From Bifidobacteriaceae bacterium (GTDB lineage: Bacteria > Actinomycetota > Actinomycetes > Actinomycetales > WQXJ01), in contig JAISXH010000036.1 in assembly GCA_031270825.1 (NCBI GenBank), forward strand, positions 1 through 64,000: a DNA stretch of 64,000 nucleotides, written 5' to 3'. The position numbers and the translations under genes are program-made. The notes beneath the pieces were generated by a model. It was not told where the DNA came from. It made no database searches and saw only the letters and a program-made list of their open reading frames with translations. Positions 11,816 through 50,048 of the stretch are shown here, piece after piece. Within the stretch, counting starts at the first letter, position 1. The number at the start of each line of letters is the position of its first letter.

Positions 11816-11830
11816 ATCGTCGAACAACTC

Positions 11831-11860: not shown

Positions 11861-11866
11861 ATACAT

Positions 11867-15700: not shown

Positions 15701-15736
15701 GGGCCGTGACGCCTCGACGATGAAGCGTCACGGCCC
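15701..15736 (-). terminator. Hairpin terminator after aldehyde dehydrogenase gene
   Basis: GGGCCGTGACGC (15701-15712) pairs perfectly with GCGTCACGGCCC (15725-15736) around a 12-base loop. On the minus strand it is followed by ATCTTTGT, a weak T-rich tail. It lies about 205 bases beyond the dehydrogenase stop and 277 bases before the lyase start. Confidence 0.65.
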
Positions 15737-15813
15737 TCGGCTAGCGTCTGATTCGGACCGACCCGGGCAAGTTGCCTTGTGGATCGCCCAATCGACGCCG
15801 ACTCAATCTGGCG

Positions 15814-15887
15814 GATGGCGGACCTACTCAGATCCGCCAGCGGCCCCGTGGCTTTCCCCGCAGATGGCGGACCTAACTGAATCCGCC
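15814..15887. repeat. Two copies of a ~25-bp repeat with internal dyad
   Basis: GATGGCGGACCTACTCAGAT (continuing CCGCCA, 15814-15839) and GATGGCGGACCTAACTGAAT (continuing CCGCCG, from 15863) are near-identical. Each carries GGCGGA and TCCGCC as short inverted arms, so each could form a small hairpin. Their role is unknown; they could be REP-like elements or part of the lyase regulatory region. Confidence 0.55.
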
Positions 15888-15941
15888 GAACCAGCTCGGT
15901 GGCTCGCGCTCGCCACCTCTACCGTGTCTTTATCCGGCGCC

Positions 15942-17429
15942 TTAGCCGGCAGGGTAGAAGCCTGAAGGCGACTCCGACAGGTTGATCATGATGTTCTTCT
16001 GTTGCGTGTAGTGCTCCAGAATCACCTTGTGTGTCTCGCGGCCAATGCCAGAGGCCTTATAGCCGCCGAAGGGGGCGCCAGCCGGGATCGAGTTGTAGGT
16101 GTTGATCCACACCCGGCCGGTCTCAATGCCGCGGGCCACACGGATGGCGCGGTTGATGTCTCTGGTCCAAACCGCCCCGCCGAGTCCGTAAACCGAGTCG
16201 TTGGCCATGGCGATGACCTCTTCCTCGGACTTGAATTTGATCACCACGGCCACCGGGCCGAAGATCTCCTCTTGCGCGACCTTCATGTCATTGGTCACGT
16301 CCGCGATCAGCGTCGGCTCCATGAACGCGCCCTTGGCCAGTTCTTCGCCGGGAGCGCGCTGGCCGCCGGCGATGACCGTGGCGCCCTCTGCCTTGGCCTC
16401 TTCGACCCAGCCCAGGATCTTCTCCAGCTGGTTCTGATCGACCTGCGATCCCATCTGGGTGTCTGGCTCCCAGGGCAAACCGACCTTGATCTTCTTGAAG
16501 GCTTCGACCGCGTCGGCCAGGAAGCGGTCGTAAATGTCCTCGTGGACAAAGACGCGCGAACCGGCGCAGCAGACCTGGCCTTGGTTGAACAAGATGCCGA
16601 GTTGCAGGCCGTCCAAGGCCATATCCCACTGGGCGTCGGGGAAATAGATGTTGGCGGACTTGCCGCCCAACTCGAGGGTGGACGGGATCAGGCGCGAGGA
16701 AGCGGCGTTGGCCACCGCGCATCCGATCTCGGTCGAGCCGGTGAAAGCCAGCTTGCGGAATCCCTGGTGGTCCAAGATGGCTTGGCCGGACTTCGAGCCC
16801 TTGCCGGTCACCACGTTGAACACGCCCTTGGGCAGGACGTCCCCGATCAGGCGGGCGAGTTCGAGGACGCTCAGCGATGTCAGCGACGAGGGCTTGAAGA
16901 CTGTGCAACAGCCCGCCGCCAGCACTGGCGCCAGTTTCCACGCCGCCATCAGGAACGGGAAGTTCCACGGCACGATCTGGCCGACCACGCCGATCGGCTC
17001 GCGCAACACCAAGGAGAGGGTCTCCTCGGTCAGCAGGGTGGCTGTGCCCTCTTCGGTCCTGACCGCGCCCGCGAAATAGCGGAAATGGTCAGATGCGAAG
17101 GGGATGTCGATGGCGCTGGTCTCACGGATCGGCTTGCCGTTGTCAAGCGATTCGACCAGGGCCAAATGCTGGGTGTTGGCGTCGATGATGTCCGCGATTT
17201 GGTTCAAGATGGCGGCGCGCGCGGCCGGCTCGACCTTCTTCCAGGATTCGAAGGCCGCCCAGGCGGCGTCAACTGCTGCGTCGACGTCTTCTTTGGTGGC
17301 CTCGGCGACACGGGCGAGGGGCTCGCCGTTGGCGGGACAGGTGCTCAGGAAAGTGGCGCCGTCTGAAGCGGGCCGCCATTCCCCGTTGATGTACAAACCG
17401 TAGGTTTCTTGCAGATCGGCTTTGATCAT
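15942..17429 (-). CDS. NAD(P)-dependent aldehyde dehydrogenase
   Basis: A 495-residue aldehyde dehydrogenase of the usual length. It has the cofactor-binding IVPWNFPFLMAAWKLAPVLA and FTGSTEIG, the general-base Glu in LELGGKSANI, and the nucleophilic Cys in FNQGQVCCAGSR. The C-terminal PFGGYKASGIGRETH is typical of acetaldehyde/short-chain aldehyde dehydrogenases. The ATG at 17429 has GAGAGG upstream, and the gene has its own well-formed promoter and an operator-like palindrome. It stands alone between the lyase and mutM. It probably oxidises acetaldehyde or a similar aldehyde to the acid in the cytosol. Confidence 0.92.
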   Translation of the reverse strand: MIKADLQETYGLYINGEWRPASDGATFLSTCPANGEPLARVAEATKEDVDAAVDAAWAAFESWKKVEPAARAAILNQIADIIDANTQHLALVESLDNGKPIRETSAIDIPFASDHFRYFAGAVRTEEGTATLLTEETLSLVLREPIGVVGQIVPWNFPFLMAAWKLAPVLAAGCCTVFKPSSLTSLSVLELARLIGDVLPKGVFNVVTGKGSKSGQAILDHQGFRKLAFTGSTEIGCAVANAASSRLIPSTLELGGKSANIYFPDAQWDMALDGLQLGILFNQGQVCCAGSRVFVHEDIYDRFLADAVEAFKKIKVGLPWEPDTQMGSQVDQNQLEKILGWVEEAKAEGATVIAGGQRAPGEELAKGAFMEPTLIADVTNDMKVAQEEIFGPVAVVIKFKSEEEVIAMANDSVYGLGGAVWTRDINRAIRVARGIETGRVWINTYNSIPAGAPFGGYKASGIGRETHKVILEHYTQQKNIMINLSESPSGFYPAG

Positions 17430-17455
17430 TTGATACCTCTCTAGAGGGGGGGATT

Positions 17456-17471
17456 GTGCTGTGGACAGCAC
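17456..17471. promoter_or_regulatory. Palindromic operator at the aldehyde dehydrogenase start site
   Basis: GTGCTGTGGACAGCAC has seven-base perfect arms around GG. It begins 27 bases upstream of the dehydrogenase ATG and lies just after the -10 box, where a bound repressor would block transcription start. The regulator is not identifiable from the motif. Confidence 0.55.
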
Positions 17472-17475
17472 TTTC

Positions 17476-17504
17476 AGCCTATCGGCCGAGCCTGTTCCTG
17501 TCAC
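17476..17504 (-). promoter_or_regulatory. Sigma-70-type promoter of aldehyde dehydrogenase gene
   Basis: On the minus strand GTGACA (17504-17499) and TAGGCT (17481-17476) are separated by exactly 17 bases. The predicted start falls near 17469, inside the palindrome, leaving a leader of about 40 bases with a GAGAGG ribosome site. Confidence 0.65.
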
Positions 17505-17778
17505 TGGTATTTGGTTCTCCGGTTCGGCCGTTGTCTTGGCTGTTCGCGACTTCCCGGGGACGATGCCGTCGGCTCGCCAGACCGGTTTTCCACCGTTTGA
17601 CGTGGGGTTTTCCCGGCCTGTCCCCGGCGCGGCTGAAGCCTGATCCGGCTCTATCCACTCGGGGCGAGAGTGGTCTGCGTGCGCGCCGTCGGCACGCCAG
17701 CGGGTGGCGTCTTGGACCGAGGCAGGCCGGGCCGACGACCGGCGAGTTCGCTCTGCGGACTCTCGGGCGGCCGGCGTT
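17505..17778. other. Spacer between aldehyde dehydrogenase promoter and mutM
   Basis: About 275 bases upstream of the dehydrogenase promoter and downstream of mutM. It has no recognisable gene. A short direct repeat (GCCGTCGGCTCGCCAG near 17567 and GCCGTCGGCACGCCAG near 17687) is the only structure noted. Confidence 0.5.
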
Positions 17779-18921
17779 CTAACCGTCCGACGGGGGAGGC
17801 GTCGCTTTGGGCGCCGGCGGCGCCGGAAGCTGCCGGCGGCGTTGGCAGCGGGGACACAGGTGCGTGCCGCGACCGGCCACGCGGGTCTTGATGATCGTGG
17901 TGTCGCAGCGGGCGCAGGGCCGTCCTTGGCGGCGGAAGACCTGGGCGAAATCGAGGTAGGCGCCGCGTCGGCCTTCGGCGTCCACATAATTGCGGTCGGT
18001 CGAGCCGCCCAGCTTCAGAGACAGGTCCATCACTTCGCCGGCGGCGATCAACAGTTCCTTCAGTTTGGGGTCTGACAGCGCCCCGATTGGTGTTTCTGGG
18101 TGAATGCGGGCGGCCCACAGGGCCTCGTCGGCGTAGATGTTGCCGATGCCGGCCACGACGGCTTGATCCAGGAGGACGGCTTTGATCGGCGCACGCCGGT
18201 GGCGCCGGGCGCGGCGGCGGAACTCTGGCCAGGCCTGCGGCCCGAACGGTTCTGGTCCCATCTTGGCTAGCAACGGAATAGCGCCGACCTCGGCGGTGGG
18301 CATGACCGCCAGCCAGCCGAATTTGCGTTGGTCGTTGAAGTAAAGGCGTGACCCGTCCGTGAACCGGATGACGACCCGGGTGGAATTGTCCGGCAGCGGC
18401 CCGATCAGCGAGTCGCTGGGATGTCCGCCGCCCCAAGCCTCGCCCGCCTCGATGGCTGCGGTGCCGATGGGTGAGACGCCGGCGGCACCGCTGTTGGGCA
18501 CGCTCGCGGTGGTGGGCGAGACGCCGGGCAGCGCCGGGGTGGCGGCCTGGCGGCGGGGCGGGGCTGCCACAGGCGCGCCGGCGGTGCCGCCGGTGGGTCC
18601 ATTCGACGCGGCGGAAGCCGCCGCCGCGTGATCGCCAGTAGGTTTACTCGTCGCAGTGGGCCCAGACGCGGCGCCAGCAGGACTGCGGAGGACCAATTGC
18701 CCGGTCATCTTCAGATGCGCCACCATCGAAATACCCTTGTCCAGGTCTATGACCAGCACTTTTCCGCGCCTGCGCAGGCCAGTCACCGGCTGGCCCACGG
18801 CGTTGGCGGCCACGCCGGTCAAGCTTGACGGTTCGATCGCCTCGATGCCGGCGATAGTGCGGCCCACGATCAAGCGTTCCAGGCCGCGGCGAACGGTTTC
18901 GACTTCGGGCAACTCCGGCAT
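17779..18921 (-). CDS. mutM: Formamidopyrimidine-DNA glycosylase with large insertion
   Basis: A base-excision repair glycosylase/lyase that removes oxidised purines such as 8-oxoguanine. The catalytic N-terminus PELPEVETVRRGL is intact (Pro2, Glu3), as are Lys54 (RRGKVLV), the helix-two-turn-helix segment VVAGIGNIYADEALW and the zinc finger CARC...CPRC near the C-terminus. At 380 residues it is about 90 longer than usual. The excess is an Ala/Gly/Pro/Ser/Thr-rich insertion at about residues 81-178, between LKMTGQLVLR and TRVVIRFTDG. This falls in a loop of the N-terminal domain, so activity is probably kept. A 30-residue Pro/Arg-rich tail follows the zinc finger. No other repair gene adjoins it. 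Confidence 0.93.
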   Translation of the reverse strand: MPELPEVETVRRGLERLIVGRTIAGIEAIEPSSLTGVAANAVGQPVTGLRRRGKVLVIDLDKGISMVAHLKMTGQLVLRSPAGAASGPTATSKPTGDHAAAASAASNGPTGGTAGAPVAAPPRRQAATPALPGVSPTTASVPNSGAAGVSPIGTAAIEAGEAWGGGHPSDSLIGPLPDNSTRVVIRFTDGSRLYFNDQRKFGWLAVMPTAEVGAIPLLAKMGPEPFGPQAWPEFRRRARRHRRAPIKAVLLDQAVVAGIGNIYADEALWAARIHPETPIGALSDPKLKELLIAAGEVMDLSLKLGGSTDRNYVDAEGRRGAYLDFAQVFRRQGRPCARCDTTIIKTRVAGRGTHLCPRCQRRRQLPAPPAPKATPPPSDG

Positions 18922-19489: not shown

Positions 19490-19588
19490 CGGGGATAGTC
19501 TGGGGGCGGATGGTACTGTTTAGCGGGGACACGTGTACCGACGTGGGCTAAAGGTGGTTGTGTGAGGTTTCAGCACGAGGAGGCAGAA

Positions 19589-22500
19589 ATGAACCAATTC
19601 AGGACTAGCGCGCATAGCGCGGCGTCTGGCAGGGGAACCCGCTCGGGTAAAGAGCGGCGGGCTTTGGCGCAGAGGGTCACCGCAGTGACCCTGTCGGTGG
19701 CGCTGGCGGGCACCGGCCTGGTGCTGGCCCAGCGCGCGCCCGAGGCGCACGCCGCCCGGACTCCGCACAGCCACACTTTCACGTCTGCCCAGCTCACCTA
19801 TACGCTGCCGGCCAACGCCGTCGACATCACGATCGAGGTCTGGGGCGGCGGCGGTGCCGGCGGCGGGGCGCGAGCCTGCGGTGGTTGGGACGGATGGGGG
19901 ACCTGGGGGAATCAGGCGAAAACCGGCACTGCGGCTGGTGGTGGTGGCGCTGCTGGCGCCTACACCACTTACGGGGTGCCAGCCTACGGGAAGGCGCTGC
20001 TTCTGACCGCGACCTTAGGAGACGGTGGGACCAGCAGTGTCATTTCGAACACACTAGGCGACGGGGCCACCGACACGCCGGAGCCGGGCACGGGTGCGGC
20101 AGGCGCTCTCTCAAAGGTGGTGGCGACCGCCGGAGGCACCAAAGTGGACGAGGTCTCGGCCGCCGGCGGAGATGGTGGCTACGGTGCCAGTGTGAATGCC
20201 GGCACCGCTAATCTGCAAGCGGCGGGCACCGGCGGCGCCGGCCCCGGCGCCGCCGGCGACGCGGGCAGCGCCCCAACCAACACGACAACGGCCAAGGGCG
20301 GTGCCGGCGGCGCCCCCGCCGTAAGTGGCGGTTCGGCGGCGCAGGGAATAGAGGTTACCGGCAACTCCGCGAGCGCGGGCAACTCCGGCGTTGCTCCGGG
20401 TGGTGGCGGCGCCGGCGCCAGCGCTCGGGCCACTAACTCCAACTACTGGGATAGCTGCCAGGGCAGCGCCGGCTCCCGCGGCGCCCAGGGTGGGGCGAAG
20501 GTCACTTATTACACCTATGATCAGGCGGTCACCTTCGAGCCGGCCGCCACTAAGACTTTGAAGGGTCGTGGCGCTCTGGCTGGTGAGAGCTTCAAGTTCG
20601 AGATCACGCCCACGGGCACAACCACCCCGGCGGCCGTGGCCGCCGGGAATGTGGTGTTGCCGGCGCAGCAGGCGACCTTGAGCGGACCGTTCGACGTGGA
20701 CACCCCACAGACTGTGAACTTCGGGGATATCACTTTCAAGACGCCGGGGACCTACGAGTTCCTGGCCACAGAGGTCGCCGTGAACACGGGTCCGGGGGTG
20801 TCTAAGACGGCTAGTTCTTTCGGTTTCACGGTGAAGGTCGAGGATGTTGCGGGGACGTTGACTCCCACGCCCACTTATCCCCTTGGCGGGATCGCGTTTG
20901 TGAACCAGTATGTGGCTTCGTCGGTGGATCTGGTCTTGACTGGCTTCAAGGAGCTGACCCCCGACGATTCTTTGCTCAAACCGGATGATCCGAAGGAGAA
21001 GTTCGAGTTCACGTTGGCGGGCGTGGGCGGAGCGCCGGTTCCGTCTTCTTTGACGGCGAAGAATGACGAGTCTGGCACGATTGATTTCGGCTTGGTGACT
21101 TACGAGTTGGATGATCTTGGCGGGCAGGCTTCTAAGACGTTCACCTATACGGTGACTGAGAAAGCCACTTCTATCGGCGGGGTGGACGACGACCCGAATC
21201 CGGTGAAGACTTTCACGGTCACGGTGGCGGATGATCGGACCGCGGCCGCGTTGGAGGTGACCGCGACCAGTCCGGCGAGCCCGGATCGGTTGTTCCAGTT
21301 CACTAACACTTACAGCGCCGATGAGGCGGTCTTGGCGCTGCCGCAGGCGTCGAAGACGATCGCCGGGCGTGGCTTCTTGAGCACCGATTCGTTCAGTTTC
21401 GACCTGACGACGACGTCGGCGAACCCGCCGGACGGTATTGAGAACAACACCGGGACCCAAACCGAGTCGGTCGGCGGCGCGGGGGGCGCCACCAAGACGT
21501 TCAACTTCGCGGACATCGAGTTCTCCAGGCCTGGCACCTATGTGTTCGGGATCGCGGAGGACTTGACCGGCCTTCCTGGGGCCTTGTCGCCTGATGACGG
21601 CACTTGCGCTTTCACGGTGAGCGTGACCGACGACGGCGCCGGCCAGCTAGACGCCGCGATCACTAGCACGGATCCCAGTCCCGTGGCGGAGTGTTTCGCG
21701 TTTGAGAACACTTACACTCCGGATGCGGCGGAGTTGGAAGTCAACGGCCTCAAGTCGTTGGTGTTCGACCCGTCCGACGCTCCTTTGGATTTGACGTTGG
21801 CGGATTTGGTGTCTGACTACACCTTCACGCTGACCGCGCTGGACGGCGGCCCGATGCCTGACGGTTGCGGCGCCTTGTCTTGCCCAGTGTCGATGGACGC
21901 GTCGGGGGCTATCGATTTCGGCAAGGCCGTGTTCGCCAAGAGCCTCCTGCCCACGGGCGATATGCAGCGGGATTTCGAGTATCGGGTGGTCGAGGCCGGC
22001 TCGCATGGCGGGGTGGTCAACGATCCGAATGCGGCTGTGTTCACGGTTAGTCTGACGGACGACGGTTCGGGGAAGCTGGACGCGAAAGTCGTCACGCCGG
22101 CTAGCGGCCCCACGTTCAGTTTCACCAACACCTATGCGGTCGAAGGCGTGGAGACGAATCCGATCGACGCGAACAAGACCCTCGACAACCGCGATTTCAA
22201 CGCCGACGAGTTCGATTTCGTGATCACAGCCTTGGATCAGGACACCAAGGCCGCGGTGACCGCCGGTTTGGTGGTGTTGCCGCCTCAGGTCCAGGTTTCG
22301 GGCGGCGCGGCTGGCGTGGCGGAGGCGTTCGCGTTCGACCCCATTTGGTTCGCCAGGCCGGGTGTGTACTCGTTCCGGGCGAGCGAGTTGCCTGGGCTGC
22401 CGGCCCACATCAACCCGACTGTCAATTTCCACGATTTCACCGTGACGGTCACCGACAACAAGGACGGGACTTTGTCGGCGGTCCCGGGCTATCCGAGCGG

Positions 22501-25063
22501 CGGGCTGGCTTTTGTGAACACCTATGAGACCAACCAGGTCACGCTGTCGCTCGACGGCGCGAAGGTGATCGCGCAGGAGGCCTCCTCGGGTTTGGGCTAT
22601 TCGGACATCGCCGGGGCTTGCGAGTTCACGATCTCGGGTGGCGCCGGCGGCCCGGCGATCCCGTCCGCGCCGGCGCATATGGACGGCCAGGGGAACATTT
22701 CCTTCGGGAGTGTGGTTTACACCCAGGCGATGTTGGGCGGCCAGTCGTCTGAGACCTTCACTTACACGGTGGCCGAGGACTGCGGCTCTTATGGCGGCCT
22801 GGCCCAGGATTCGGATCAGAGCTTCTCGATCACGGTCGCTGACGACGGCGCCGGCAACCTTTCCTACACGTCTAGCCCGGCTTCGGGCGCGCTGTTCGAG
22901 TTCGAGAACACGTATTCGGTCGCGCCGGTCGAGGTGCCGGTCAGCGCCACTGTGACGCTGGTGGGCCGTGACGGCTTGCCGGGCGAGAAGTTCGTGTTCA
23001 GGGTCAGCGACACGACACCGGTTCCGGCCTGGTTGCGGCGGGCTTTGCCGGCGGAGGTGGAGGTCGACGCGGGCGGCAACGGCGTTCCGGTGGTGATCCC
23101 GTTGGGGGCTATCGAGTTCCAGACGCCGGGCAGGCTTCAGTTCACCGTCGCCCAGGACACGACCGGTCTGGAGCCGGGTGTCACGGCCACCAACAACAAC
23201 CTGACGTTTGTGGTGGAAGTGGTCGACGATCATAACGGCGGCTTGGATTATTCGGTCACCTACGCTGACGGCGCCGATGGTCTGGCGTTCGTCAACACTT
23301 ATGCGACCACGGATGTGACCAGGCCGTTCGCGGGGAACAAGATTTTGCGTCTGGATCCTGACGATGGTTCGTTGGCGTTGGGCACAGGCGATCTGGCGGG
23401 GGCGTTCAGTTACGCTTTGACGGCCCCGGCGGGCACGCCGTTGCCGAGCGAGTGTGTTGTCGGCGATCCTTGCGTGGTCTCCAACGACGCCACCGGGACG
23501 GTCTCGTTCGGTTCGGTGACTTATGGTTTCGCCGATCTGGCGGGACAGACCTCGAAGGTGTTCACATACACTGTCGAGGAGTCGGGTGGTTACCCGGGTG
23601 TTGTGAATGACCCGGTTTCCTCCCGGGATGTGAGGGTCCAGGTGGAAGACAATTTGGACGGCACTCTCAAGGTGACGGTGCTGGACTTCCTGCGTGATGT
23701 GGTCGATCCTTGGTTCGCTTTCACGAACGTGTATTCGGTGGTTCCGACACGCACGGAGATCACGGCGACGGCGGTCCTGGACGGCCGGCCGATGGCGGCT
23801 GGCGAGGTGTTCCGGTACAGGTTGATAGCGCTGAACGACTTGGCGGCGCTTGTGCCGTTGCCTGGCCCGGTGACTGTCAGCGCGGCCGGCGAGGGCGAAG
23901 TGGTCGCCTTCAGCTTCGGCGAGCTCGAGTTCCCCGGCCCGGGCGAATACATTTTCGAGGCCTATCAGGAGATCGCCACCCGTCTGCCGCCCGGGGTCAG
24001 CGAGGTGGCGGGCCGGTTCGTGTTCAAGGTCGTGATCGAAGACGCCAAGGACGGGACTTTGACGGCCACGGTGGTGTATCCCGAGGGCGATATCGCTTTC
24101 GAGAACCAGTACACCGCCCAACATGTGAACCTGGATTTCAATGGCATCAAGGTGCTGGATCTGGCTGATCCGGCGTTGGGTTTGACGTTGGCGGACATCG
24201 CCGACCGGTATCGGTTCACGGTGCGGGCGGTGACTCCGGGGGCGCCGTTGCCGGCCAGTCCGACGGCCTCGAACCAGGCGTCCGGGCAGGTGTCGTTCGG
24301 CCAGGCGGTCTACACGTTGGAGGATCTGGACGGCCAGCCTTCTAAGGCTTTCACTTATGAGGTCTTAGAGTCCGGCGCGGTGCCGGGCGTGGTCAACGAT
24401 CCGGAGGCGCAGACCGGCAAGAGGTTCACGGTCACGGTGACCGATGACGGTCTGGGCCACTTGGTGCAGACCACCGAACCGTCGGCGCCGTTGTTCACGT
24501 TCGTCAACACCTATGGTGTGGCGCCGGTGTCAGTCGATGTGGTTGCGACCAAGGTGTTGGAGGGCCGGGGCTTGGAGGCTGGGGAGTTCACGTTCAGCTT
24601 GTCTCAGGGCGATCAGGTCCTTCAGAGCCTGGCCAACGCGGCCGACGGGTCGGTCGCGTTCGACCCTGTGACGTTCACCAGGCCGGGCGCTTATTCGTTG
24701 ACCGTCTCCGAGACCGCCGGGTCGGCTGATGGCGTCTACTACGACAGCCACGTCGCCGTCCTGAATTTGGTGGTCGAGGACGACGGCGAAGGCGGCCTGG
24801 TCGTGGCGCCCTATGAGGCCCAGGGCGGTCTGGTGTTCACGAACGCTTACACGCCGCCGCCAGGACCGGAGCCAGAGCCGACACCGACCCCGACACCCAC
24901 GCCTACCCCGACGCCGACGCCGTCGGCGGGCGCCTCGGGTGATCTGCCCTGGACCGGGGCCGACCCGCTCGGGCGGGTGTGGCTGGCTGTCGTGTTGGTG
25001 GCCCTAGGGGCGGTCCTGCTGCTGACCGGCCGGCGCCGGGCACTGGCCAAGAGCCGGAGCTGA
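19589..25063 (+). CDS. Giant LPXTG-anchored surface protein with alternating isopeptide (Spy0128/FctA-like) domains
   Basis: A predicted 1,824-residue secreted, wall-anchored protein. The ATG at 19589 follows GAGGAG at good spacing; an earlier in-frame GTG (19562) lacks this. A long signal peptide ends near APEAHA (about residue 46). Residues about 50-300 are a glycine-rich domain. From about 310 to 1755 there are 11 beta-sandwich repeats, each starting with a KxL/KxLxGR-type strand and ending FxNTY or FVNQY, as in pilin isopeptide domains of Gram-positive bacteria. They alternate between a 'GRxL' type (A) and a 'LTLADLADxYxF' type (B) in the order (AB)x5-A. The expected Lys is absent from A4 (SATVTLVGR) and A5 (TATAVLDGR). 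A Thr-Pro linker precedes LPWTG (residues 1786-1790), a membrane helix and a basic tail. Likely an adhesin or stalk. No sortase gene lies in the window. Confidence 0.88.
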   Translation: MNQFRTSAHSAASGRGTRSGKERRALAQRVTAVTLSVALAGTGLVLAQRAPEAHAARTPHSHTFTSAQLTYTLPANAVDITIEVWGGGGAGGGARACGGWDGWGTWGNQAKTGTAAGGGGAAGAYTTYGVPAYGKALLLTATLGDGGTSSVISNTLGDGATDTPEPGTGAAGALSKVVATAGGTKVDEVSAAGGDGGYGASVNAGTANLQAAGTGGAGPGAAGDAGSAPTNTTTAKGGAGGAPAVSGGSAAQGIEVTGNSASAGNSGVAPGGGGAGASARATNSNYWDSCQGSAGSRGAQGGAKVTYYTYDQAVTFEPAATKTLKGRGALAGESFKFEITPTGTTTPAAVAAGNVVLPAQQATLSGPFDVDTPQTVNFGDITFKTPGTYEFLATEVAVNTGPGVSKTASSFGFTVKVEDVAGTLTPTPTYPLGGIAFVNQYVASSVDLVLTGFKELTPDDSLLKPDDPKEKFEFTLAGVGGAPVPSSLTAKNDESGTIDFGLVTYELDDLGGQASKTFTYTVTEKATSIGGVDDDPNPVKTFTVTVADDRTAAALEVTATSPASPDRLFQFTNTYSADEAVLALPQASKTIAGRGFLSTDSFSFDLTTTSANPPDGIENNTGTQTESVGGAGGATKTFNFADIEFSRPGTYVFGIAEDLTGLPGALSPDDGTCAFTVSVTDDGAGQLDAAITSTDPSPVAECFAFENTYTPDAAELEVNGLKSLVFDPSDAPLDLTLADLVSDYTFTLTALDGGPMPDGCGALSCPVSMDASGAIDFGKAVFAKSLLPTGDMQRDFEYRVVEAGSHGGVVNDPNAAVFTVSLTDDGSGKLDAKVVTPASGPTFSFTNTYAVEGVETNPIDANKTLDNRDFNADEFDFVITALDQDTKAAVTAGLVVLPPQVQVSGGAAGVAEAFAFDPIWFARPGVYSFRASELPGLPAHINPTVNFHDFTVTVTDNKDGTLSAVPGYPSGGLAFVNTYETNQVTLSLDGAKVIAQEASSGLGYSDIAGACEFTISGGAGGPAIPSAPAHMDGQGNISFGSVVYTQAMLGGQSSETFTYTVAEDCGSYGGLAQDSDQSFSITVADDGAGNLSYTSSPASGALFEFENTYSVAPVEVPVSATVTLVGRDGLPGEKFVFRVSDTTPVPAWLRRALPAEVEVDAGGNGVPVVIPLGAIEFQTPGRLQFTVAQDTTGLEPGVTATNNNLTFVVEVVDDHNGGLDYSVTYADGADGLAFVNTYATTDVTRPFAGNKILRLDPDDGSLALGTGDLAGAFSYALTAPAGTPLPSECVVGDPCVVSNDATGTVSFGSVTYGFADLAGQTSKVFTYTVEESGGYPGVVNDPVSSRDVRVQVEDNLDGTLKVTVLDFLRDVVDPWFAFTNVYSVVPTRTEITATAVLDGRPMAAGEVFRYRLIALNDLAALVPLPGPVTVSAAGEGEVVAFSFGELEFPGPGEYIFEAYQEIATRLPPGVSEVAGRFVFKVVIEDAKDGTLTATVVYPEGDIAFENQYTAQHVNLDFNGIKVLDLADPALGLTLADIADRYRFTVRAVTPGAPLPASPTASNQASGQVSFGQAVYTLEDLDGQPSKAFTYEVLESGAVPGVVNDPEAQTGKRFTVTVTDDGLGHLVQTTEPSAPLFTFVNTYGVAPVSVDVVATKVLEGRGLEAGEFTFSLSQGDQVLQSLANAADGSVAFDPVTFTRPGAYSLTVSETAGSADGVYYDSHVAVLNLVVEDDGEGGLVVAPYEAQGGLVFTNAYTPPPGPEPEPTPTPTPTPTPTPTPSAGASGDLPWTGADPLGRVWLAVVLVALGAVLLLTGRRRALAKSRS

Positions 25064-39350: not shown

Positions 39351-40430
39351 CTAAACGTTGGAGATGCTGGTTGGCGCCGGTGCTGGTGCTGGTGTCGGCG
39401 GCGCTGGCGGCGGTCCTGAGCTGTCCCTGACCACCAGCCGACACGGCAGCAACACCGATGCCGGCTCGCGTTCCAGGTCGGGCGGCGTCTGCAGGGCCTC
39501 GATCAGCAGGCGGGCGCCCATCTGGCCCAGTTCGATCGCCTGCGGCTCAAGGGTCGTCAACTTGGGGCGGAACATCTCGGTGACGCGGGTCGAGGAGGCG
39601 ATCGACACGACCGAGAAGTCGCGCGGCACGGACGCGCCGATGCGTTCTATGGCGCTGAGGACCCCGACGGTGGCGCGGTCGTTCATAATGGCGATGCCGG
39701 TCAGGTCGGGGGCGGTCTCCAGCAGTTCGCGGAAGGCGGCTTCTCCAGATTCGGAGTCCTCGCCGCAGGGGCGCTCCAGGTAGGCGACCGAGAACTCTTC
39801 CGCGGCCCGTCTCAAGGCCGCCGCCGCCCGCACTGACGGGCCATAGGCGGTCGACATCTCAGAGGCCGAGTGGTTCAGGAAAGCGATCTTGCGGTGGCCG
39901 AGTTTGGCCAGGTGCTCGACGGCGTCTCTGCCGGTCTGGTCGAAGTCGATGTCGGCGCAGTCGATCCCGTCCGGGTCCCGCGGCCGGCCGATCATCGAGA
40001 AGGGTATGCCGGCGTTGCGCAGCAGGGGGATGCGTTCGTCATCCAAGCGCACCTCCATCAGGATGGCGCCGGCGATCAATCCGCCTTTGTTCAGCGCCTC
40101 GACCTGGCCGGCCGTGTTGGAGTTGGTCACCGACAGGACCAGTTGGTGGCCTAGCTCCTTGGCGGCCTGGGCGGCCCCGGTGGCGAACTCCATCTCGGTG
40201 AAGCCGATTCCGCGCTGGGATTCGGGCAGCAGCAGGGCCACCACGCGCGACCGCCGGCTGGCCAGGCCGCGGGCCAATTCGTTGGGTTTGTAACCGAGTT
40301 CGGCGATGGCCCGAAGAATGCGTTTGCGGGTCGACGGGGATATGGTGCGTTGACCGCTGAGGGCGTAGGAGACGGTGCTGGGAGCCACATTGGCTCTTCT
40401 GGCGACGTCGATCATCCTGGGGTTGGCCAC
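39351..40430 (-). CDS. LacI-family transcriptional repressor
   Basis: A 359-residue repressor. The N-terminal helix-turn-helix is [20 protein letters not shown], followed by the hinge [15 protein letters not shown] and a periplasmic-binding-protein-like sensor ([26 protein letters not shown]-like). The GTG at 40430 follows GGAAAGGAAAG; the frame is open to 40481 but that start adds a non-conserved stretch. The C-terminal 20 residues are Pro/Ala-rich. It is read divergently from the GH3 gene, and a 14-bp operator-type palindrome sits between them. It probably controls the GH3-ABC-GH31 locus in response to a sugar. Confidence 0.92.
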
Positions 40431-40587
40431 CGGCTTTCCTTTCCATTCGACTGCTTGCAGCTTACGCCGGGTCCCTGTCATTTCGCCGACACCAGCCTCC
40501 GCCGGGGCGGCCCGGGCCTCAGTCCGCGCCGAACCCCCATGTCAGCCGTTCGCCTTCAGTGTCCACGTTGCAGTTGGGCCACAGCTA

Positions 40588-40618
40588 TTGACGGGGGGCC
40601 GACCGGGTGCGGTAGTAT
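40588..40618 (+). promoter_or_regulatory. Promoter of the GH3 sugar locus
   Basis: TTGACG (40588-40593) and TAGTAT (40613-40618) are separated by 19 bases, slightly longer than ideal. The predicted start falls within the operator palindrome at 40618-40631, so repressor binding would occlude initiation. Confidence 0.6.
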
Positions 40619-40631
40619 CGAAGCGCTTCGA
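40618..40631. promoter_or_regulatory. LacI-type operator TCGAAGCGCTTCGA
   Basis: A perfect 14-bp palindrome with a central CG, placed over the predicted start site of the GH3 transcript and 187 bases upstream of the divergent lacI-type gene. It shares the inner GAAGCGCTTC with the site at 11802. Confidence 0.8.
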
Positions 40632-40722: not shown

Positions 40723-43700
40723 ATGCACCAAACCGGTCGGCTGAGTGCCGCCAAGAAAGTTGTGGCGGCCACGGTAGCCGCGACAGTGGTTGCTTTTGGG
40801 TTGGTTACCACCCAAGATAATCAGGCAGTGGCTGCGCCCGAGGACATTACCGGCGTCGCTTACCCGTTCCAAGACACCTCGCTCAGCGACGATGCACGGG
40901 TTCAGGATTTGATTTCGCGCCTCACCGTGGACGAGAAGGTTGGCCTGCTGCACCAGTTCAGCGCCGCCATCATCCGCTTGGGCGTGCCCCAGTTCAGGAC
41001 CGGCACCGAAGGGTTGCACGGCCTGTCATGGCTCGGCTACGCGACGGTGTTCCCGCAGAACACCGGCATCGCTATGACCTGGAACCCCGAACTGGCCGAG
41101 AAGATCGGCGATGTCGTGGGCTCTGAGGCGAGGGCCTATAACTCGGTCGACGCCCGCTTCAACGGGATCGACATCTGGGCCCCGGTGGTGGACCTGGCCC
41201 GCGACCCGAGGGCCGGCCGGGCCTCCGAGTCCATGGGCGAGGACGCCTTCCTGGCGGGCACCATTTCCTCTTCCATGGCCGCTGGCCTGCAGGGCGGCGA
41301 CAATGGCTACTACCAGGCGATTCCGACCCTGAAGCACTTCGCCGCCTACGGGCAGGAGGCCAACCGCGCCGGCTATTCGGCCAACGCCGGTCCCCGTAAC
41401 CTGTACGAATACTATTTCCGGGCCTTCAGCCGGGGCATCGCCGAGGGCAACGTCAACGGCATCATGACGGCGTACAACCTGGTCAACGGCAAACCCACGA
41501 TGGTCATGCCGGAAGTCATGAGCCAGCTCTACGGCGAATGGGTGGACGGCGGATACGGCAGCGGCGCGTTCTTCGCGGTGACGGATGCCGGGTCTCCCGG
41601 GAACCTGTCAGGCTCGAACGCCTATTACCCGGCTAGCACGCTGGGCCAATCGGCTTCGATGGCTGATTCGCTCAAGAACGGCATCGCCGTGATGACTCCC
41701 TCCGACACGGACACTCCTACCACCCGGCGCTGGTTCTATGAGGCGCTGGCCCGGGGAATGATCACCGAGGCGGACATCGACCAGGCCATCTACGGCATCT
41801 TGCTGGTTCGTTTGCATGCTGGCGACTTGGACGCGGACGCCACCGACAACCCTTACAAGCAGCTCAACAAGATCAATGCGCTCGACACCCAGGCCAACCG
41901 CGAGGTCGCCGCTCAGGCCGCGAAAGAGCAGGTCGTGTTGCTCAAGAATGATGGCGGCATTCTGCCCTTGTCGAAGTCGGCTGATGTCGCCTTGGTCGGC
42001 CCCTTGGGAGATGAGAACTCGACCGACTTCTACGCTGGCACCTACCCCTACACCACCCTGATCAAGGACGAGGTGGCGCGGAAGGTGGCCGCCAGCGGTT
42101 CGCTTGACTTCAGCCGCGGAGTCGATCTGGTGGCCCTCCAAGTCACCAACGGCACCGGCAATCCGGACGGCAAGTTCCTGGTCACCGGGGCCACGCCGGC
42201 CGATCCGTTGACCGGCACGGGCACATCGGCAAGCGATGCCAAGGCCCAGTTCTACCTCTACGACTACGGCTACAACAACATGCTGCTGCGTTCGGCCGAC
42301 ACCGATCGATATCTGGTCGCGCGGGGCTCCGGCAACACCGTCATAGCCAACGCCGACCCGCCCGGCTACGAAGGCGCCAACCGGGCCAGCCAGCAGTGGT
42401 CCACCGATCAAAACCTGGGCATTGTCCAGCGGGCCGGCTCCGTCGTCTCGTTGCGCTTCGCCAAGGGCACCTCGATCGTCTCCCCGACCGCCGCCTCCAA
42501 CGTCTACGTCAACCAGAATTCGCCCTACAACGTGGTCCACAACGGCAACAACTCCAGCGTCAACCGGCAGTTCGAGCTGATCACGGTCCAGGACGGGGTA
42601 GACGATGCCGTCGCCAAGGCCACCGGGGCCGATGTCGCCGTTGTCGCCGTGGGCGACCAGCCGCACATGACCTCGCGTGAGACCTACGACCGGCAGTCGA
42701 CTGCGCCGGACATCAAGCTGGCGCCCGCGCAGGAAGAACTGATCGACGCCGTCGCCACCGCCAACCCGAACACGGTGGTCGTGATAGTCGGCAGTTACCC
42801 GTTCGACGTCTCGGCCGTCCAGGCCAACCCCAACGTCAAGGGGATCGTGTACACCAGCCACGCCGGTCAAGAACTCGGCAACGCCGTCGCGGACGTCCTG
42901 TTCGGGGACTATGCTCCGGCCGGCCGGCTGAACCAGACCTGGTATGCGGGCCTGGGCGACCTCCCACCGATCACCGACTACGACATCATCAAGGGCAACC
43001 GCACCTATCAGTACTACGACGGCGCCCCGATTTACCCGTTCGGCTACGGCCTGACCTATACGACCTTCGCCTATTCGGGCGTGTCGTTGAATCCGGCCTC
43101 GGTCCCGAACGCCAACCTCAGCGCGACGGTGCCGGTCTCCGTGACCGTCTCGAACACCGGCACGCGGGCCAGCGACGAGGTGGTACAGCTCTACTCGTCG
43201 TTCAACGGCGCCGGGTCCTCGCGGGTCGAGTATCCCAACCGGACGCTGATCGGCTACAAGCGGGTCAACGTCGGCGCGGGCGCCACAGCCCAAGTCACCA
43301 TCAACGTGTCGCTGAGCGATTTGGCGATCTGGGATGCGGCTGGTCAACGGTATGCCCTCGAACCAGGCACGTACACCATCGCGGCGGCCCGGTCCTCGGC
43401 GACCGCTGACCAGCTGGCCACGGCCACGCTGACGGTCACCGGCCCTGGACTGGCGGCTCGTGACTTGAGCACGGCCCAGTCGGCGTACAACTTCGACGAC
43501 TACTCGTTCACCACGGTGACGGCCACCGGCACCCAGGCGGATGTGATCCCGAGCTCGGTCAATGAGAACGACACTTACGGCATCAACTTCCGCGCCACCA
43601 CCGGCGGCTGGGTCAAGTACGCCGATGTCAACTTCGGATCGCAGACGGGCTTCGCCATCCGGGCGTCTAACTCGAACGCCGTTCCGGTTGCGGTCGAGGT

Positions 43701-46434
43701 TTGGCGCGACGGCCCTGACGCCGGCTCCGGCGGAACCCCGATGGGAATCGTCAACGTCCCGCCGACGGGACATCTGCAGACCTTCGTGAGCATTGGGACC
43801 ACGCTGGCCGCGGTTCCCAGCGGGACGGCCGATCTCTACTTGGTCAGCCCGTCCAGCGGCGTGTCGGTGTCTTGGCTGCGCCTTGGCGCCTTGGCCCAGG
43901 CGACCAATGCCGATGTGACGGTCACCACCAACCACTACAACACCAACCTGACCACCTCCCTGACCCGGTACCACGTCGAGGTTCCGGCCACGATCGAGCA
44001 GCGGTCCGGCAACTTGGTGGTTGAAGCCGAAATCAACGCTCCCCGCGTGGTGGCCGGCGCGGTCACCTGGTCGGTGACAGATTTGTTGGGCGCTCCGACG
44101 ACAGCGGCCACCATCAGCGCCACTGGACAGCTCACGGCCGCCGGGACAACCGACGGATGGGTGCGGGTGACCGCCACCTACCCGACCGCTTCCGGCCAGG
44201 CGTCTGGTTCGATCGATGTGGAATTGAAGAATCAGACGGTCGACGCGGGCACCAACGCGGAGGCGATCATCATTCGCAGCGGCTGGGATTCGCGGCCGTC
44301 GGATATCTCGTGGGGGCCGAACCAGTTCGACACCTTCGGCGCCATACACCAATACAAGGGCGAGCTGCTGCTCAGCGCCGTCACCTACCCGTTCCCAAAC
44401 AGCGCGGCCCGTCCGGTCACGTTCACGGTGACGAACCAGTACGGCCAGCCCACCAATCTGGCAGAGATCGTCGCTGGGTCCGAGGCGGCAGGATTCGTCG
44501 AGGGTCAGACCTCTGGGAACAACAACCGGGCCTACAACGCCACCTTGCGGGCGACTGGCAACGGCGACGGCGAGGTCTATGTGACGGCCACAACCAGCAA
44601 CAACCTCTCCTACACCACCCGGATCGTCATTCAAGGCCAAGGCATTCGCTCGGCCTACCCGACGCGCTACGAGGCCGAATTGTTTGACTCGGCTGGGAAC
44701 GTCGACGGTGTGACACCGGCCAACCTGCGGGCCGACAATGTCCACGGTGACGATGCCGGTCTGCAGCTCAACCGCATCCGCAACGGCGATTACGCGGTCT
44801 ACAACCGGTTCTACATGGGGGAGGCTCAGGCGGTCGAAATGACGCTGCGCTATATGAAGGCCTCCACCGAACCGGCCAAGATCACGGTCATGGCAGACGA
44901 TCCGGTGACAGGGACCAAGCTCGGCGAAGTCGAACTGGCGGGCGACCTGGACCTGACAGTGGCGGCGGATTATCAGAATCCGGTCTATCACTGGCAGGAT
45001 GTCACCTTCGCCTTGACGCCGCTGGCCGGAGTCCACGACCTCTACCTGGTATTCGAGGTGTCGGCGGCGATTCCGAACACCGACATCTCCAGCGTCTATG
45101 GCGCTGTCGCCGGCTGGCTCGACCTGGGCATCAACTGGTTCGCGATCGAGGGCATTCAGCAGAGCGCTCCGCAGGGAACGGCCCAAGATGTGAAGGTCGG
45201 CGAGGCGGACGGCAACGGCACGGTCAAGCAAGTGGTGCTCGATGCCGCGCCGGTGGCGGACCCGGCCATCGCGACCGCGTCGATCGATCTGGCCGCCACC
45301 CAAATCGGCGCCATCACCTCGGCTGACGGCGATGTCTCGGCCACCGAAGCGGTGGTGCTGCCCGATGGCACAGTGCGCTTCTCGGGCGATGTTCCGGGCG
45401 TCTACGAGATTCCGGTGACCTACTACGACAACCTGGGCAAGAGCGTGGTGGTGACGCATGTCGTCACCATTCAGGCCATGCCCGCGGGAGTCGGCGGCCA
45501 GGCCCGGATCGCCGAAGACGGCTCGCACGCCTTCGGTGCCCCGGCCGGGATCGGCGCCGCGACCGGTGCTCTGTCCACGCCGCCAGCCGATGGCGCCGTG
45601 GTGATCGGGCCAAGTGGGGCTGTGGAGTTCGACGCCGATGGCGTCGCGCCCGGCGCCTACGAGTTCGACGTCACATTCACCGACGACCTCGGCCAATCGG
45701 TGGTGGTCTCGTATGAAGTCGTCGTCCAGGCCCGGCCCACCGCCGGCGGCGGATCGGCAACGGTCGATGAAGGTGGCGAGCACACCTTCCAGGTCGCCAT
45801 CGGCACCACCGGGAGCATCGTGGCTGGCACCGCCGCGGACGTCCCGGCCGGCGCGACGGTCACGGTCGGCCTGGACGGCACGGTGGAGTTCGATGCCGGC
45901 GCCGCCGCGCCGGGGACCTACCAGTTCTCCGTGACCTGGCGAGACAACCTGGGCCAGACCGCCACCAGCGAATTCACGGTAATCATCGCCGGAGAGCCCG
46001 GCGAACCCGGCGAACCCGGCGAACCTGGCGAACCTGGGGAGCCGGGTGAACCCGGTGAGCCGGGAGAACCTGGTGAGCCCGGAGAACCTGGCGAGCCTGG
46101 TGAACCTGGGGAGCCGGGTGAACCCGGGGAGCCCGGAGAGCCGGGCGAGCCTGGTGAACCTGGGGAGCCTGGAGAACCTGGGGAGCCCGGAGAGCCGGGG
46201 CCAATTGGACCAATCGGACCAATTGGACCGACTGGGCCGGCTGGGCCGGCCGGACCGGCTGGGCCGGCCGGAGGAGCGGGCGGAACGGGAGTATCGCCTG
46301 ACGATGAGGGACAGCTGCCCTTCACCGGCACCTCAGCCCTGCCAACTGCCGCGCTGGCCGCCTTGCTGATGCTGGTCGGCGGGTTCGCCGCAGTCGCCTC
46401 GCGCCGTCGGCGGCGCAGCGAGGGGGTCGGCTGA
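40723..46434 (+). CDS. Wall-anchored GH3 glycosidase with CBM6-like, Ig-like and collagen-like regions
   Basis: A 1,903-residue secreted multidomain enzyme. A Sec signal (about 1-39) is followed by the GH3 catalytic domain: KHFAAYG, then the probable nucleophile Asp288 in FAVTDAGS. A non-standard domain (about 480-623) interrupts the GH3 C-terminal half; an Fn3-like domain lies near 788-905. Further on are two CBM6-like parts (about 910-1060 and 1313-1476), a Big2-like part, and three Ig-like repeats. Residues 1757-1849 are collagen-like: 23 Gly-Glu-Pro then eight Gly-Pro-X triplets. LPFTG (1865-1869), a membrane helix and a basic tail complete a sortase anchor. The chosen ATG gives a good signal peptide, although AAAGGAG sits unusually close to it. 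It is probably a beta-glucosidase or beta-xylosidase displayed on the wall. Confidence 0.9.
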
Positions 46435-48237: not shown

Positions 48238-49170
48238 ATGACCAGGCCCGCCGCCAAGCGGCCCGTCCGTGGCCGCGGGCGGGTTTACTGGCTCTACTTG
48301 ATTCCGGGCGCGATCGGGTTGTTGACGGTCATAATCGTGCCTTTCGGCCTGAACGTCTGGTACAGCCTGCACCGCTGGAAGGGCGGTCTGGCGCCGATGC
48401 ATTGGAACGGGCTGGGCAACTACGCCGACCTGTTGGGCGACGCGGCCTTCTGGGGATCGTTTCGGAACTCGATCTGGATGGTCGTTTCGATGGTGCTGGT
48501 GCCGACCCTGATCGGACTATTGTTGGCCGCCGTTCTGTTTGATTACGTGGCCACTCACGTTGGCCAACGAGTGGCGGGCTTCCTTAGGGCGACCTACTAT
48601 CTGCCCCAGATCATGCCAATCGCTGTGGCCGGCATCGTCTGGAACTGGATCCTGAACGCCCAGACCGGCGCGCTGAACGAGACGTTACGCGCGATCGGCG
48701 TCACCCAGCCGCCCAACTGGCTGGGCGAACCCAAGAGCGCCTTGCCGGCGGTGATGGTGGTGCTGGTCTGGATCCAGATCGGCTACCCGACGGTCATCTT
48801 CATGTCCGCCCTGCAGCGGGTCGATCCGGAGCTTTACGAAGCGGCCGAATTGGACGGGGCGGGATGGTTCCGGCGCTTCCGCGCCATCACCATCGCGCAG
48901 ATCCGGCCAGAGACCTTTGTCGTCGTCTTGACTTGCACGGTCGCGGCCCTCAAGGTCTTCGCCCCGATCTATGTCCTGACCCGGGGCGGCCCGGAGAAAT
49001 CGACCTTGGTGCCGTCCTATTACTCGTTCCTGAATTTCTTCGACACATCCAAAGTCGGTTACGGCGCGGCCATCGCGACGGTGCTGACCGTGGTGATCAT
49101 CGTGGTCGCCGGAATCATCCAGGTTCTTCAAAACAGATCAGAGCGTTCTAGGACGGAGGCGCCGGCATGA
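48238..49170 (+). CDS. Carbohydrate ABC transporter permease (MalF type)
   Basis: A 310-residue inner-membrane permease of the CUT1 family with six hydrophobic segments and the EAA loop ELYEAAELDGAGWFRRFRAI. I prefer the ATG at 48238, with AAGGG seven bases upstream; an ATG at 48223 has GGAGG too close to it but would add only five residues. It follows the three-hairpin gap and overlaps the next permease as ATGA. It forms a channel with that protein for sugars bound by the lipoprotein. Confidence 0.93.
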   Translation: MTRPAAKRPVRGRGRVYWLYLIPGAIGLLTVIIVPFGLNVWYSLHRWKGGLAPMHWNGLGNYADLLGDAAFWGSFRNSIWMVVSMVLVPTLIGLLLAAVLFDYVATHVGQRVAGFLRATYYLPQIMPIAVAGIVWNWILNAQTGALNETLRAIGVTQPPNWLGEPKSALPAVMVVLVWIQIGYPTVIFMSALQRVDPELYEAAELDGAGWFRRFRAITIAQIRPETFVVVLTCTVAALKVFAPIYVLTRGGPEKSTLVPSYYSFLNFFDTSKVGYGAAIATVLTVVIIVVAGIIQVLQNRSERSRTEAPA

Positions 49171-50048
49171 CCGCAGTTGTACCGGCTTCGGCCCGGGTGG
49201 GCCCCAGGCGGGCGCATGACCGCCACCATCGGGGCGTCTTGAGGTGGTTCGTATTAGCCGGCTGCGTGGTGGTGGCGCTGGCCATGTTGGCGCCGTTCGC
49301 CCTGATGATCATCAACGCTTTCAAGTCCCCCACCGAGTACTCCACTTCCGGCCCGCTGGCGTTGCCGAGCGAGTTGTACACCAAAGGCCTGGTCGACTTC
49401 TGGAACCGCGTCGACTTCCCGACCAAGCTGTGGAATTCGATCTGGACTTCGGCGGCGGTGGCGCTGTTCGGGACACTGCTGTCGCTGTTGTCCGCCTACG
49501 CGCTCGGAGTGGGCAGAGTCCGGGGCCGGCTCTGGCTGGTCGGCGTGTTCTTGCTGGCCAACATGTTGCCCCAGGAAGTGCTGCTCTATCCCCTCTACGA
49601 CATGGCCCAGGAAGTCGGACTGAACAACTCCGGTTGGTCGATCGTGATCATTTTCACGGTCATTCAATCCGCCTTCGGCACCTACCTGGTGGCGTCAGTC
49701 CTCGGCACCTTCCCGCCTTCGCTGCTGGAGGCGGCGGCGCTGGACGGCGCCAACTCTTGGCAGCAGCTATGGAAGGTGGTCTTCCCAATAGTGCGGCCAA
49801 CCCTGTCGGTGCTGATGATCTTCTTCTTCATTTGGACCTGGAATGAGTTCTTCATCCCCCTGGTGATGTTGACCTCGCCAGATTCGCAAACGGTGCCGAT
49901 CACACTATCCTCGTTGCAGGGAGACCGGATGCTCGACGTGCCGACTCTCAACGCCGGCGCCCTGGTCTCGTTGATCCCAACCCTGATTTTCTTCCTGATC
50001 TTCCAACGGACCCTGACGCGGGGTGTCACCGCGGGGTCGATAAAGTAG
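49167..50048 (+). CDS. Carbohydrate ABC transporter permease (MalG type)
   Basis: A 293-residue partner permease with six hydrophobic segments, the EAA loop LLEAAALDGANSWQQLWKVV, and the C-terminal LTRGVTAGSIK characteristic of MalG homologues. Start ATG 49167 overlaps the previous stop. A 30-residue basic N-terminal tail (RVGPRRAHDRHHRG) precedes the first helix. The ATP-hydrolysing subunit is not encoded in the locus. The GH31 gene follows after 29 bases, so the two are probably co-transcribed. Confidence 0.93.
   Translation: MTAVVPASARVGPRRAHDRHHRGVLRWFVLAGCVVVALAMLAPFALMIINAFKSPTEYSTSGPLALPSELYTKGLVDFWNRVDFPTKLWNSIWTSAAVALFGTLLSLLSAYALGVGRVRGRLWLVGVFLLANMLPQEVLLYPLYDMAQEVGLNNSGWSIVIIFTVIQSAFGTYLVASVLGTFPPSLLEAAALDGANSWQQLWKVVFPIVRPTLSVLMIFFFIWTWNEFFIPLVMLTSPDSQTVPITLSSLQGDRMLDVPTLNAGALVSLIPTLIFFLIFQRTLTRGVTAGSIK

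Follow-up and report, generated by a model that had tools for sequence, protein, structure and literature searches.

A sortase-anchored GH3 glycosidase whose collagen-like stalk is replaced in a sister species by a non-collagen tail

Analysis of the window (the whole 64,000-nucleotide stretch of DNA) identified a gene on the forward strand (40723..46434; open frame and Pfam) for a sortase-anchored GH3 protein of 1903 aa with two CBM6 domains and a collagen-like stalk. A sister species joins the same enzyme to its anchor by a non-collagen tail, and we favour reading the Gly-X-Y strip as an exchangeable spacer, for which collagen-type three-stranded folding is possible. We consider it somewhat probable that the protein is a surface exo-beta-glycosidase held by sortase on an acidic spacer, performing the extracellular step of a LacI-controlled xylo-/xyloglucan-oligosaccharide locus.

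Architecture of the anchored GH3 protein

The open reading frame extends from an ATG at 40723 to a stop ending at 46434, exactly as delimited in the initial annotation. It begins with a signal peptide ending in QAVAA (40723..40839, read from the sequence, with a corresponding start in the orthologues L047 and L069), followed by the N-terminal catalytic domain of GH3 (PF00933, Glyco_hydro_3; 40978..41793; 100.6 bits, cut-off 27) and the C-terminal domain in two halves (PF01915, Glyco_hydro_3_C; 41932..43059; 157.6 bits, cut-off 31). Both catalytic motifs are present: VTDAGS, from residue 286, aligns with the SDAGG region of the solved GH3 structure 21ji, and SRETYDR starts at residue 651. Across four GH3 orthologues VTDA is invariant, as is SRETYDR except for a Y/F exchange; we take the Asp of the former motif to be the GH3 nucleophile and the Glu of the latter to be the acid/base. 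An insert of ~150 aa within the C-terminal domain (42133..42588) has no Pfam match and is weakly beta-trefoil-like, its PDB matches to designed beta-trefoils being weak (best E 6.5e-5).

Downstream lie a fibronectin III-like domain typical of GH3 (PF14310, Fn3-like, 65.4 bits; 43177..43398) and the two CBM6 domains (PF03422; 43585..43878 and 44776..45066). CBM_6 reaches 64.7 bits over the two stretches, and the second yields 33.4 bits on its stretch alone (cut-off 28.9); the initial description of a GH3 enzyme with two CBM6 regions is thereby upheld. Ig-like repeats, recognised by a weak Big_9 match and predicted beta-sandwiches, precede the stalk (45400..45987). AlphaFold modelled residues 1058-1757 as a string of beta-sandwiches with medium confidence (pLDDT 65-92 over the final ~200 residues), for which Foldseek returned generic Ig/cadherin chains; the model of residues 41-1060 (pLDDT 39, four-row alignment) was not used.

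The stalk, delineated by triplet reading and Pfam, consists of an acidic part of 23 Gly-Glu-Pro triplets (45991..46197) and a neutral, wall-proximal part of eight Gly-Pro-Y triplets with Y = I, I, I, T, A, A, A, A (46198..46269), the very counts initially proposed, and is followed by the degenerate triplets GGA GGT GVS (46270..46296). Past these, from 46315, comes the sorting signal, in which LPFTG is followed by a hydrophobic stretch and an RRRRR tail (PF00746; 46315..46431). Gram_pos_anchor scores 21 bits on this protein (cut-off 20) and 28 bits in the genome-wide search, and the host genome encodes two sortases, so that the LPFTG anchor of the initial annotation also stands.

Regulation, transport and predicted substrate

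A LacI-family regulator (Pfam LacI and Peripla_BP_3; 39351..40481, reverse strand) diverges from the GH3 gene and holds the same position in L047, L048 and L069. Alignment of three upstream regions revealed a tentative promoter-like site on the forward strand (40588..40618), composed of TTGACG (40588-40593) and TAGTAT (40613-40618) at a long spacing of 19; the TATTGACG stretch at this site is conserved in the three orthologous loci. Adjoining it is a putative LacI-type operator palindrome, TCGAAGCGCTTCGA (40618..40631, no strand assigned), whose core is kept in 3/3 orthologues and is duplicated in L047. The motif GAAGCGCTTC occurs twice in the window against 0.05 expected occurrences.

Downstream on the forward strand are genes for a sugar ABC transporter substrate-binding protein (PF01547; 46631..47962), two sugar ABC permeases (PF00528; 48223..49170 and 49167..50048) and a YicI-type GH31 alpha-xylosidase with no apparent signal peptide (PRK10658, PF01055; 50078..52348), which scores 1173 bits against the NCBIfam PRK10658 equivalog (cut-off 606). 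The entire order, LacI-GH3-SBP-permeases-GH31, is preserved around an 86% identical orthologue; L047 keeps LacI-GH3-SBP up to a contig end, and in Jiangella LacI, SBP, permeases and a GH31-like gene lie beside an unanchored GH3 homologue.

The adjacency of a YicI-type alpha-xylosidase to an importer and a GH3 gene is characteristic of xyloglucan/isoprimeverose loci. The window GH3 falls below the cut-off of every NCBIfam equivalog. Among solved structures, those nearest to it in sequence are an isoprimeverose-producing oligoxyloglucan hydrolase (21ji, the best) and, among others, beta-xylosidases and beta-glucosidases. Judged from these similarities, the locus most likely serves the capture of xylo- or xyloglucan-oligosaccharides. 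The anchored GH3 would trim oligosaccharides bound by its CBMs on the cell exterior, the product would enter through the ABC importer, and the GH31 alpha-xylosidase would complete the breakdown in the cytoplasm, an isoprimeverose route being the most attractive version. The host is a gut-type actinobacterium.

Repeat evolution and exchange of the Gly-X-Y stalk

The Gly-X-Y pattern of the window stalk is uninterrupted, with Gly in 34/34 triplets (31 of them GEP or GPY) and a Pfam Collagen score of 55.7 bits against a cut-off of 27.2, and thus has the long unbroken run typical of Scl-kind bacterial collagen-like proteins. All of its charge is acidic, Lys and Arg being absent. The array is a DNA repeat as well: units of 18 and 54 bp match at 83-89%, versus 76% for the 9-bp unit. 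Because the longer units are the better preserved, we conclude that the array grew by duplication of multi-triplet blocks and was, then or meanwhile, maintained through selection on the peptide.

These higher-order periods, and further 9-bp arrays in the host genome (including two at contig ends), speak for the repeat being mainly a by-product of slippage in a G+C-rich 9-bp minisatellite, with a tolerated, roleless peptide. We consider this extremely improbable. Relative to the unit consensus, all 41 differences in the GEP units fall at third codon positions, leaving first and second positions unchanged, and the 23 differences among the 13 distinct 9-mers are all synonymous (p about 3e-14 under random change). 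Selection has therefore acted on the peptide, as the initial annotation had supposed from codon variation between repeats. Moreover, the Gly phase is preserved in the 86% orthologue, and in both genes the array is placed exactly where the last domain gives way to the sorting signal. Pure DNA slippage was accordingly rejected, strongly disfavoured by the synonymy of every inter-unit change. The stalk count excludes Collagen matches elsewhere in the genome, most of which are 9-bp arrays with several open frames, as well as the GEP arrays of G006 and G003, which sit in short frames.

Relatives were searched with the GH3 protein minus its stalk. The 86% orthologue, from the same genus, has an uninterrupted Gly-X-Y stalk of the same two-part design, with 26 core triplets and GPSGPPGPPGPAGPSGPAGPP at its wall end, and retains Gly at each third residue although X and Y have diverged. 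Between the two collagen-type orthologues, Gly occupies every third position in 57/57 core triplets, staying in phase even where Pro moves from Y to X; Y is not Pro in 13 of these triplets, and X is variable. The L047 orthologue (72%) combines the same enzyme and anchor with an acidic, PTEEP-type P/E/T-rich tail that is not collagen-like (PVDSPPTEEPTEAPTEEPTGAPSEEPSGAAPSGGATTPGGASP ahead of LPVTG), and the Jiangella homologue is without an anchor. The tails of the three anchored orthologues are all Pro-rich and acidic, with Lys and Arg nearly absent, but do not share the collagen pattern. Five other LPXTG proteins of the host genome bear shorter Pro-rich or plain tails.

Two sister species thus offer a natural comparison of the same enzyme with and without the collagen pattern. 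Because one of them manages without it, the main job of the spacer is probably independent of a collagen trimer. The Gly-X-Y segment would then be an extended acidic spacer of ~26-29 nm that brings the bulky enzyme across the wall and a short way past it; we infer both this wall-spanning role and the oligomeric state of the stalk. What speaks against a plain spacer is the fixation of Gly at every third residue, for which a simple PPII spacer would have no use. Dense rows of Glu could conceivably bind cations, and the strip might mainly be a ligand or adhesin for host or bacterial partners, or for metal, rather than a spacer. This is very unlikely: the strip adjoins the wall with at least five domains above it, it can be replaced, as in the 72% orthologue, and the locus bears no sign of adhesion.

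Trimeric folding and comparison with known systems

The initial annotation proposed a GH3 enzyme displayed on a collagen-like stalk, three heads to a trimer. The wall-anchored GH3 on a Gly-X-Y segment is borne out by the domains, the sorting signal and the Gly phase in the 86% orthologue; trimerisation and three heads per stalk are not, and the replaced stalk of the 72% orthologue and the composition tell against them. Were three chains to wind into a collagen triple helix, the neutral Gly-Pro-Y block on the wall side could nucleate it and zipping could proceed through the acidic Gly-Glu-Pro block. The unbroken triplets, the Collagen match, the similarly built stalk of the 86% orthologue and the purely synonymous changes within the array are all consistent with such a helix, which we nevertheless regard as somewhat doubtful. 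Scl proteins possess a trimerisation domain beside the collagen region (PMC8968730), whereas Pfam and NCBIfam recognised none beside this stalk, where Ig-like repeats lie. Electrostatics are said to stabilise bacterial collagens (PMC4066190), yet the wholly acidic stalk has no Lys or Arg for pairing. Studied bacterial collagens have >30% Pro in X and about 5% in Y (PMC3707005), and here Pro occupies Y in 23/31 triplets and X in 8/31. Prolyl hydroxylation as the missing stabiliser was rejected, as the 95% complete genome gave no match to PF13640, the prolyl hydroxylase-like family covered.

Acidic G-X-P tails also precede the sorting signals of unrelated surface proteins in the same order, including amylopullulanases. 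Ten sampled tails (L109-L113, L121-L123, L137, L140) resemble the window stalk in position, in acidic G-(E/D/Q)-P composition and roughly in length, but their heads are not GH3 and they lack the neutral Gly-Pro-Y block. In these juxta-anchor arrays Gly is found in 267/274 triplets, a figure favourable to a trimer but biased, since the arrays were found by their G-X-P pattern; Gly is interrupted within the array in two of the ten (L111 and L113), which tells against it. Such tails mean that the stalk idea is not unique to GH3. The initial annotation knew of no such arrangement for GH3, which may be right, as a literature search (thin on subscription papers) found no precedent combining a glycoside hydrolase, a collagen-like region and LPXTG; the stalk type itself, however, is also seen on further carbohydrate-active proteins that are anchored by sortase in this order. 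More doubtful still is a broader proposal, in which acidic, hydroxyproline-free (Gly-Glu-Pro)n assembles into a genuine collagen trimer, with nucleation at the wall-proximal Gly-Pro-Y block and three GH3 heads per stalk, and in which this stalk exemplifies a G-(D/E)-P collagen anchor module that is lineage-wide among the order's carbohydrate-active surface proteins. If G-(D/E)-P tails do fold as triple helices, bacterial collagen gains a common acidic, Y-proline, enzyme-clustering wall class, and present rules of collagen stability without hydroxyproline are challenged. If they do not, a perfect Gly-X-Y run with a strong Pfam Collagen match can mark a single-chain spacer, and annotation calls for caution.

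Among known systems, streptococcal Scl1/Scl2 (SclA/SclB) likewise place a Gly-X-Y region ahead of a wall-anchoring C-terminus. The window protein differs in that it bears an enzyme, has a stalk with Pro at Y, Glu at X and no Lys/Arg, and shows no recognised V-type trimerisation domain. Its NCBIfam scores, confined to the repeat region, are 53.7 bits for Scl1/SclA (cut-off 400) and 34.3 for Scl2/SclB (cut-off 325); Scl membership was rejected on these scores and on composition. The LPXTA carbohydrases of Bacillus cellulosilyticus (PMC3617157) are, like the window GH3, modular CBM glycosidases (CBM6 included) fixed to the wall by sortase; in the accessible part of that report, no collagen-like stalk is mentioned and the GH3 enzymes are unanchored. 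Isoprimeverose-producing GH3 enzymes (21ji, 5yot; PMC6325624) have the GH3 fold in common with the window enzyme, which is also linked in the genome to an alpha-xylosidase for which isoprimeverose could be a substrate; they have no wall-anchoring stalk as far as is known. For the favoured spacer reading, there are counterparts in PXXP-type PPII tails, a common wall-anchoring element ahead of sorting signals (PMC3707005). As in the window stalk, these tails, FctB for example, place Pro at each third residue right before the anchor and are proposed to be spacers; in the window stalk Gly, too, is fixed at every third residue, in phase when Pro moves.

Architecture and locus of the anchored GH3 enzyme

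The sortase-anchored GH3 gene (40723-46434, + strand) encodes 1903 residues comprising a signal peptide, GH3 N- and C-terminal domains, an Fn3-like domain, two CBM6 domains, a collagen match and an LPXTG anchor. All domain matches exceeded curated cut-offs, the anchor barely so, in agreement with the initial annotation of a GH3 enzyme with two CBM6-like regions and an LPFTG signal. The enzyme retains the catalytic motifs VTDA and SRETYDR, and its closest PDB relatives are an isoprimeverose-producing oligoxyloglucan hydrolase, beta-xylosidases and beta-glucosidases. An insert of about 150 residues in the GH3 C-terminal domain (42133-42588), kept in all four orthologues (68-81%), is weakly similar to beta-trefoils. 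A second surface protein of 1833 aa (19562-25063, + strand) carries, besides a TPTPTP tail and LPWTG, seven FctA/Spy0128-like isopeptide (pilin-type) domains. The search of the window revealed no sortase gene, and the whole genome gave only two sortase matches.

Upstream lies a divergent LacI regulator; the genes downstream encode a sugar-binding protein, a pair of permeases and a GH31 enzyme, whose score as an alpha-xylosidase equivalog is 1173 bits against a cut-off of 606. The palindrome TCGAAGCGCTTCGA (40618-40631) adjoins a promoter-like site and is kept in three orthologous loci, with the core GAAGCGCTTCGA. The core of this putative GH3 operator recurs in a second LacI-type palindrome, TGGAAGCGCTTCCA (11802-11815), which lies a short distance before the DUF222 gene at 11867-13840 and also beside a GFO_IDH_MocA/ABC sugar importer/GH38 alpha-mannosidase cluster. 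Isoprimeverose-producing GH3 enzymes free isoprimeverose from xyloglucan oligosaccharides (PMC6325624). In the simplest model for the locus, the anchored GH3 would trim its substrate at the cell surface, and the product would be imported and acted on by the cytoplasmic alpha-xylosidase.

Repeat structure of the stalk

Between the last domain and the LPFTG signal (starting at 46315), the stalk reads as 23 Gly-Glu-Pro (GEP) triplets followed by GPI three times, GPT, GPA four times, and GGA GGT GVS, matching the 23 GEP and eight Gly-Pro-X triplets originally described. No other run of at least eight Gly-X-Y triplets occurs in any frame of the window, save the antisense reading of this array. Codon variation between repeats, and selection on the peptide rather than the DNA, had also been proposed, and both hold: the 23 GEP units differ from their consensus at 41 third positions and at no first or second position, and among the 13 distinct 9-mers each of the 23 differences is synonymous (p about 3e-14, with random change as the null). 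The array (45991-46197) shows a block structure of 18 and 54 bp and therefore grew through block duplication. Compared with the rest of the gene it uses GGT and CCT more often (p 6e-4 and 3e-6), which may lower slippage or reflect its origin; codon use within the array is nearly even. Elsewhere in the genome, contigs C42 (1-148; L075) and C21 (13540-13651; L074) end within tandem arrays of a 9-bp unit, translated according to frame as Gly-Pro-Thr, Gly-Gln-Pro or Gly-Trp-Pro; the assembly probably broke there inside long repeats.

With helix rises of 0.286 nm per residue in collagen and 0.31 nm in PPII, the 31 triplets would span about 27 or 29 nm, respectively. As this is close to the thickness of a Gram-positive wall, the stalk may sit mostly inside the wall.

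Orthologues and the collagen reading

Using the protein minus its stalk as query against 99 genomes (the window's own, in 70 contigs, included; the assemblies of the same-genus relatives are fragmented, and at least one was binned from a metagenome), we found the full-length gene in only two further genomes, both of the same genus. The closer orthologue (G009, 86% identical) carries a stalk of GEH(GEP)6 GSP (GEP)2 GGP (GEP)2 GQP (GEP)2 GQP (GEP)2, then GPS GPP GPP GPA GPS GPA GPP at the wall end, GTR and TPSPSGSADGEETLPITG. The GH3-on-stalk arrangement is real and conserved in one sister species. Domain-wise comparison revealed that the catalytic part is best kept in all orthologues, and that the stalk is either missing or cannot be aligned in the second orthologue (G005, 72%; Bifidobacteriaceae bacterium Pcl387_bin9, contig identical to L047) and in Jiangella aurantiaca (L048), which has the enzyme and a similar locus without the anchor. 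The Jiangella locus holds two adjacent GH3 homologues (9797-17809), the first of which terminates in a short repeat domain that is not an anchor; no sorting signal was seen in either.

Both collagen-type stalks share a two-part design, acidic Gly-X-Pro followed by neutral Gly-Pro-Y at the wall end. Gly occupies 57 of 57 core triplets, although X varies among E, Q, S, G and P and Y among P, I, T, A, S and H, and its phase is unbroken where Pro shifts from Y to X. This pattern is the best evidence for the collagen reading, in which a trimeric triple helix would, as initially proposed, hold three catalytic heads. We nevertheless consider such a helix possible but somewhat doubtful: G005 replaces the stalk with a PTEEPTEAP-type tail and LPVTG, no trimerisation domain was recognised, and Pro fills Y in 23 of the window's 31 stalk triplets versus about 5% in the bacterial collagens studied (PMC3707005). 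Bacterial collagens are moreover said to be electrostatically stabilised (PMC4066190), whereas the window's stalk contains no basic residue. A PF13640 hydroxylase-like gene was not found in the window's genome.

Gly-X-Pro tails across the order

Of 396 genomes in the order, 21 (from 12 of 109 genera) contain four GEP codon triplets in a row, and runs of eight G-X-P triplets are present in 43 genomes, counts that include arrays outside real genes or away from anchors. At the loci examined, such arrays also directly precede the sorting signal of unrelated proteins: in one genome a ThuA/GSDH/PKD/CBM6 protein (L109) and a PA14/CBM/3-keto-disaccharide hydrolase protein (L110), in two genomes amylopullulanases (L111, and L112, assigned by matching C-terminal sequence), and, in other genomes, further surface proteins (L113, L121, L122, L123, L137 and L140). 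This survey covered one order, arrays matching G-X-P patterns and, as a rule, one locus per genome. In L137, an LPRTG protein with a Rib-type domain, the array beside the anchor combines GEP with GKP triplets, making it a version of the tail with paired charges.

Across the non-GH3 arrays, Gly is missing from 7 of 274 triplets and Pro in Y from 3, both figures biased downwards since the search for arrays relied on a G-X-P pattern. L111 and L113 show in-phase losses of Gly at which Pro remains; what is generally constrained may therefore be G-x-P as an extended acidic spacer, for which a triple helix would be optional.

The surface arrangement had been described as unfamiliar for GH3. It is apparently undescribed in the literature searched, but its spacer type recurs in the order; the protein is a sortase-anchored glycosidase that bears CBMs and stands on a collagen-like spacer belonging to this recurrent type.
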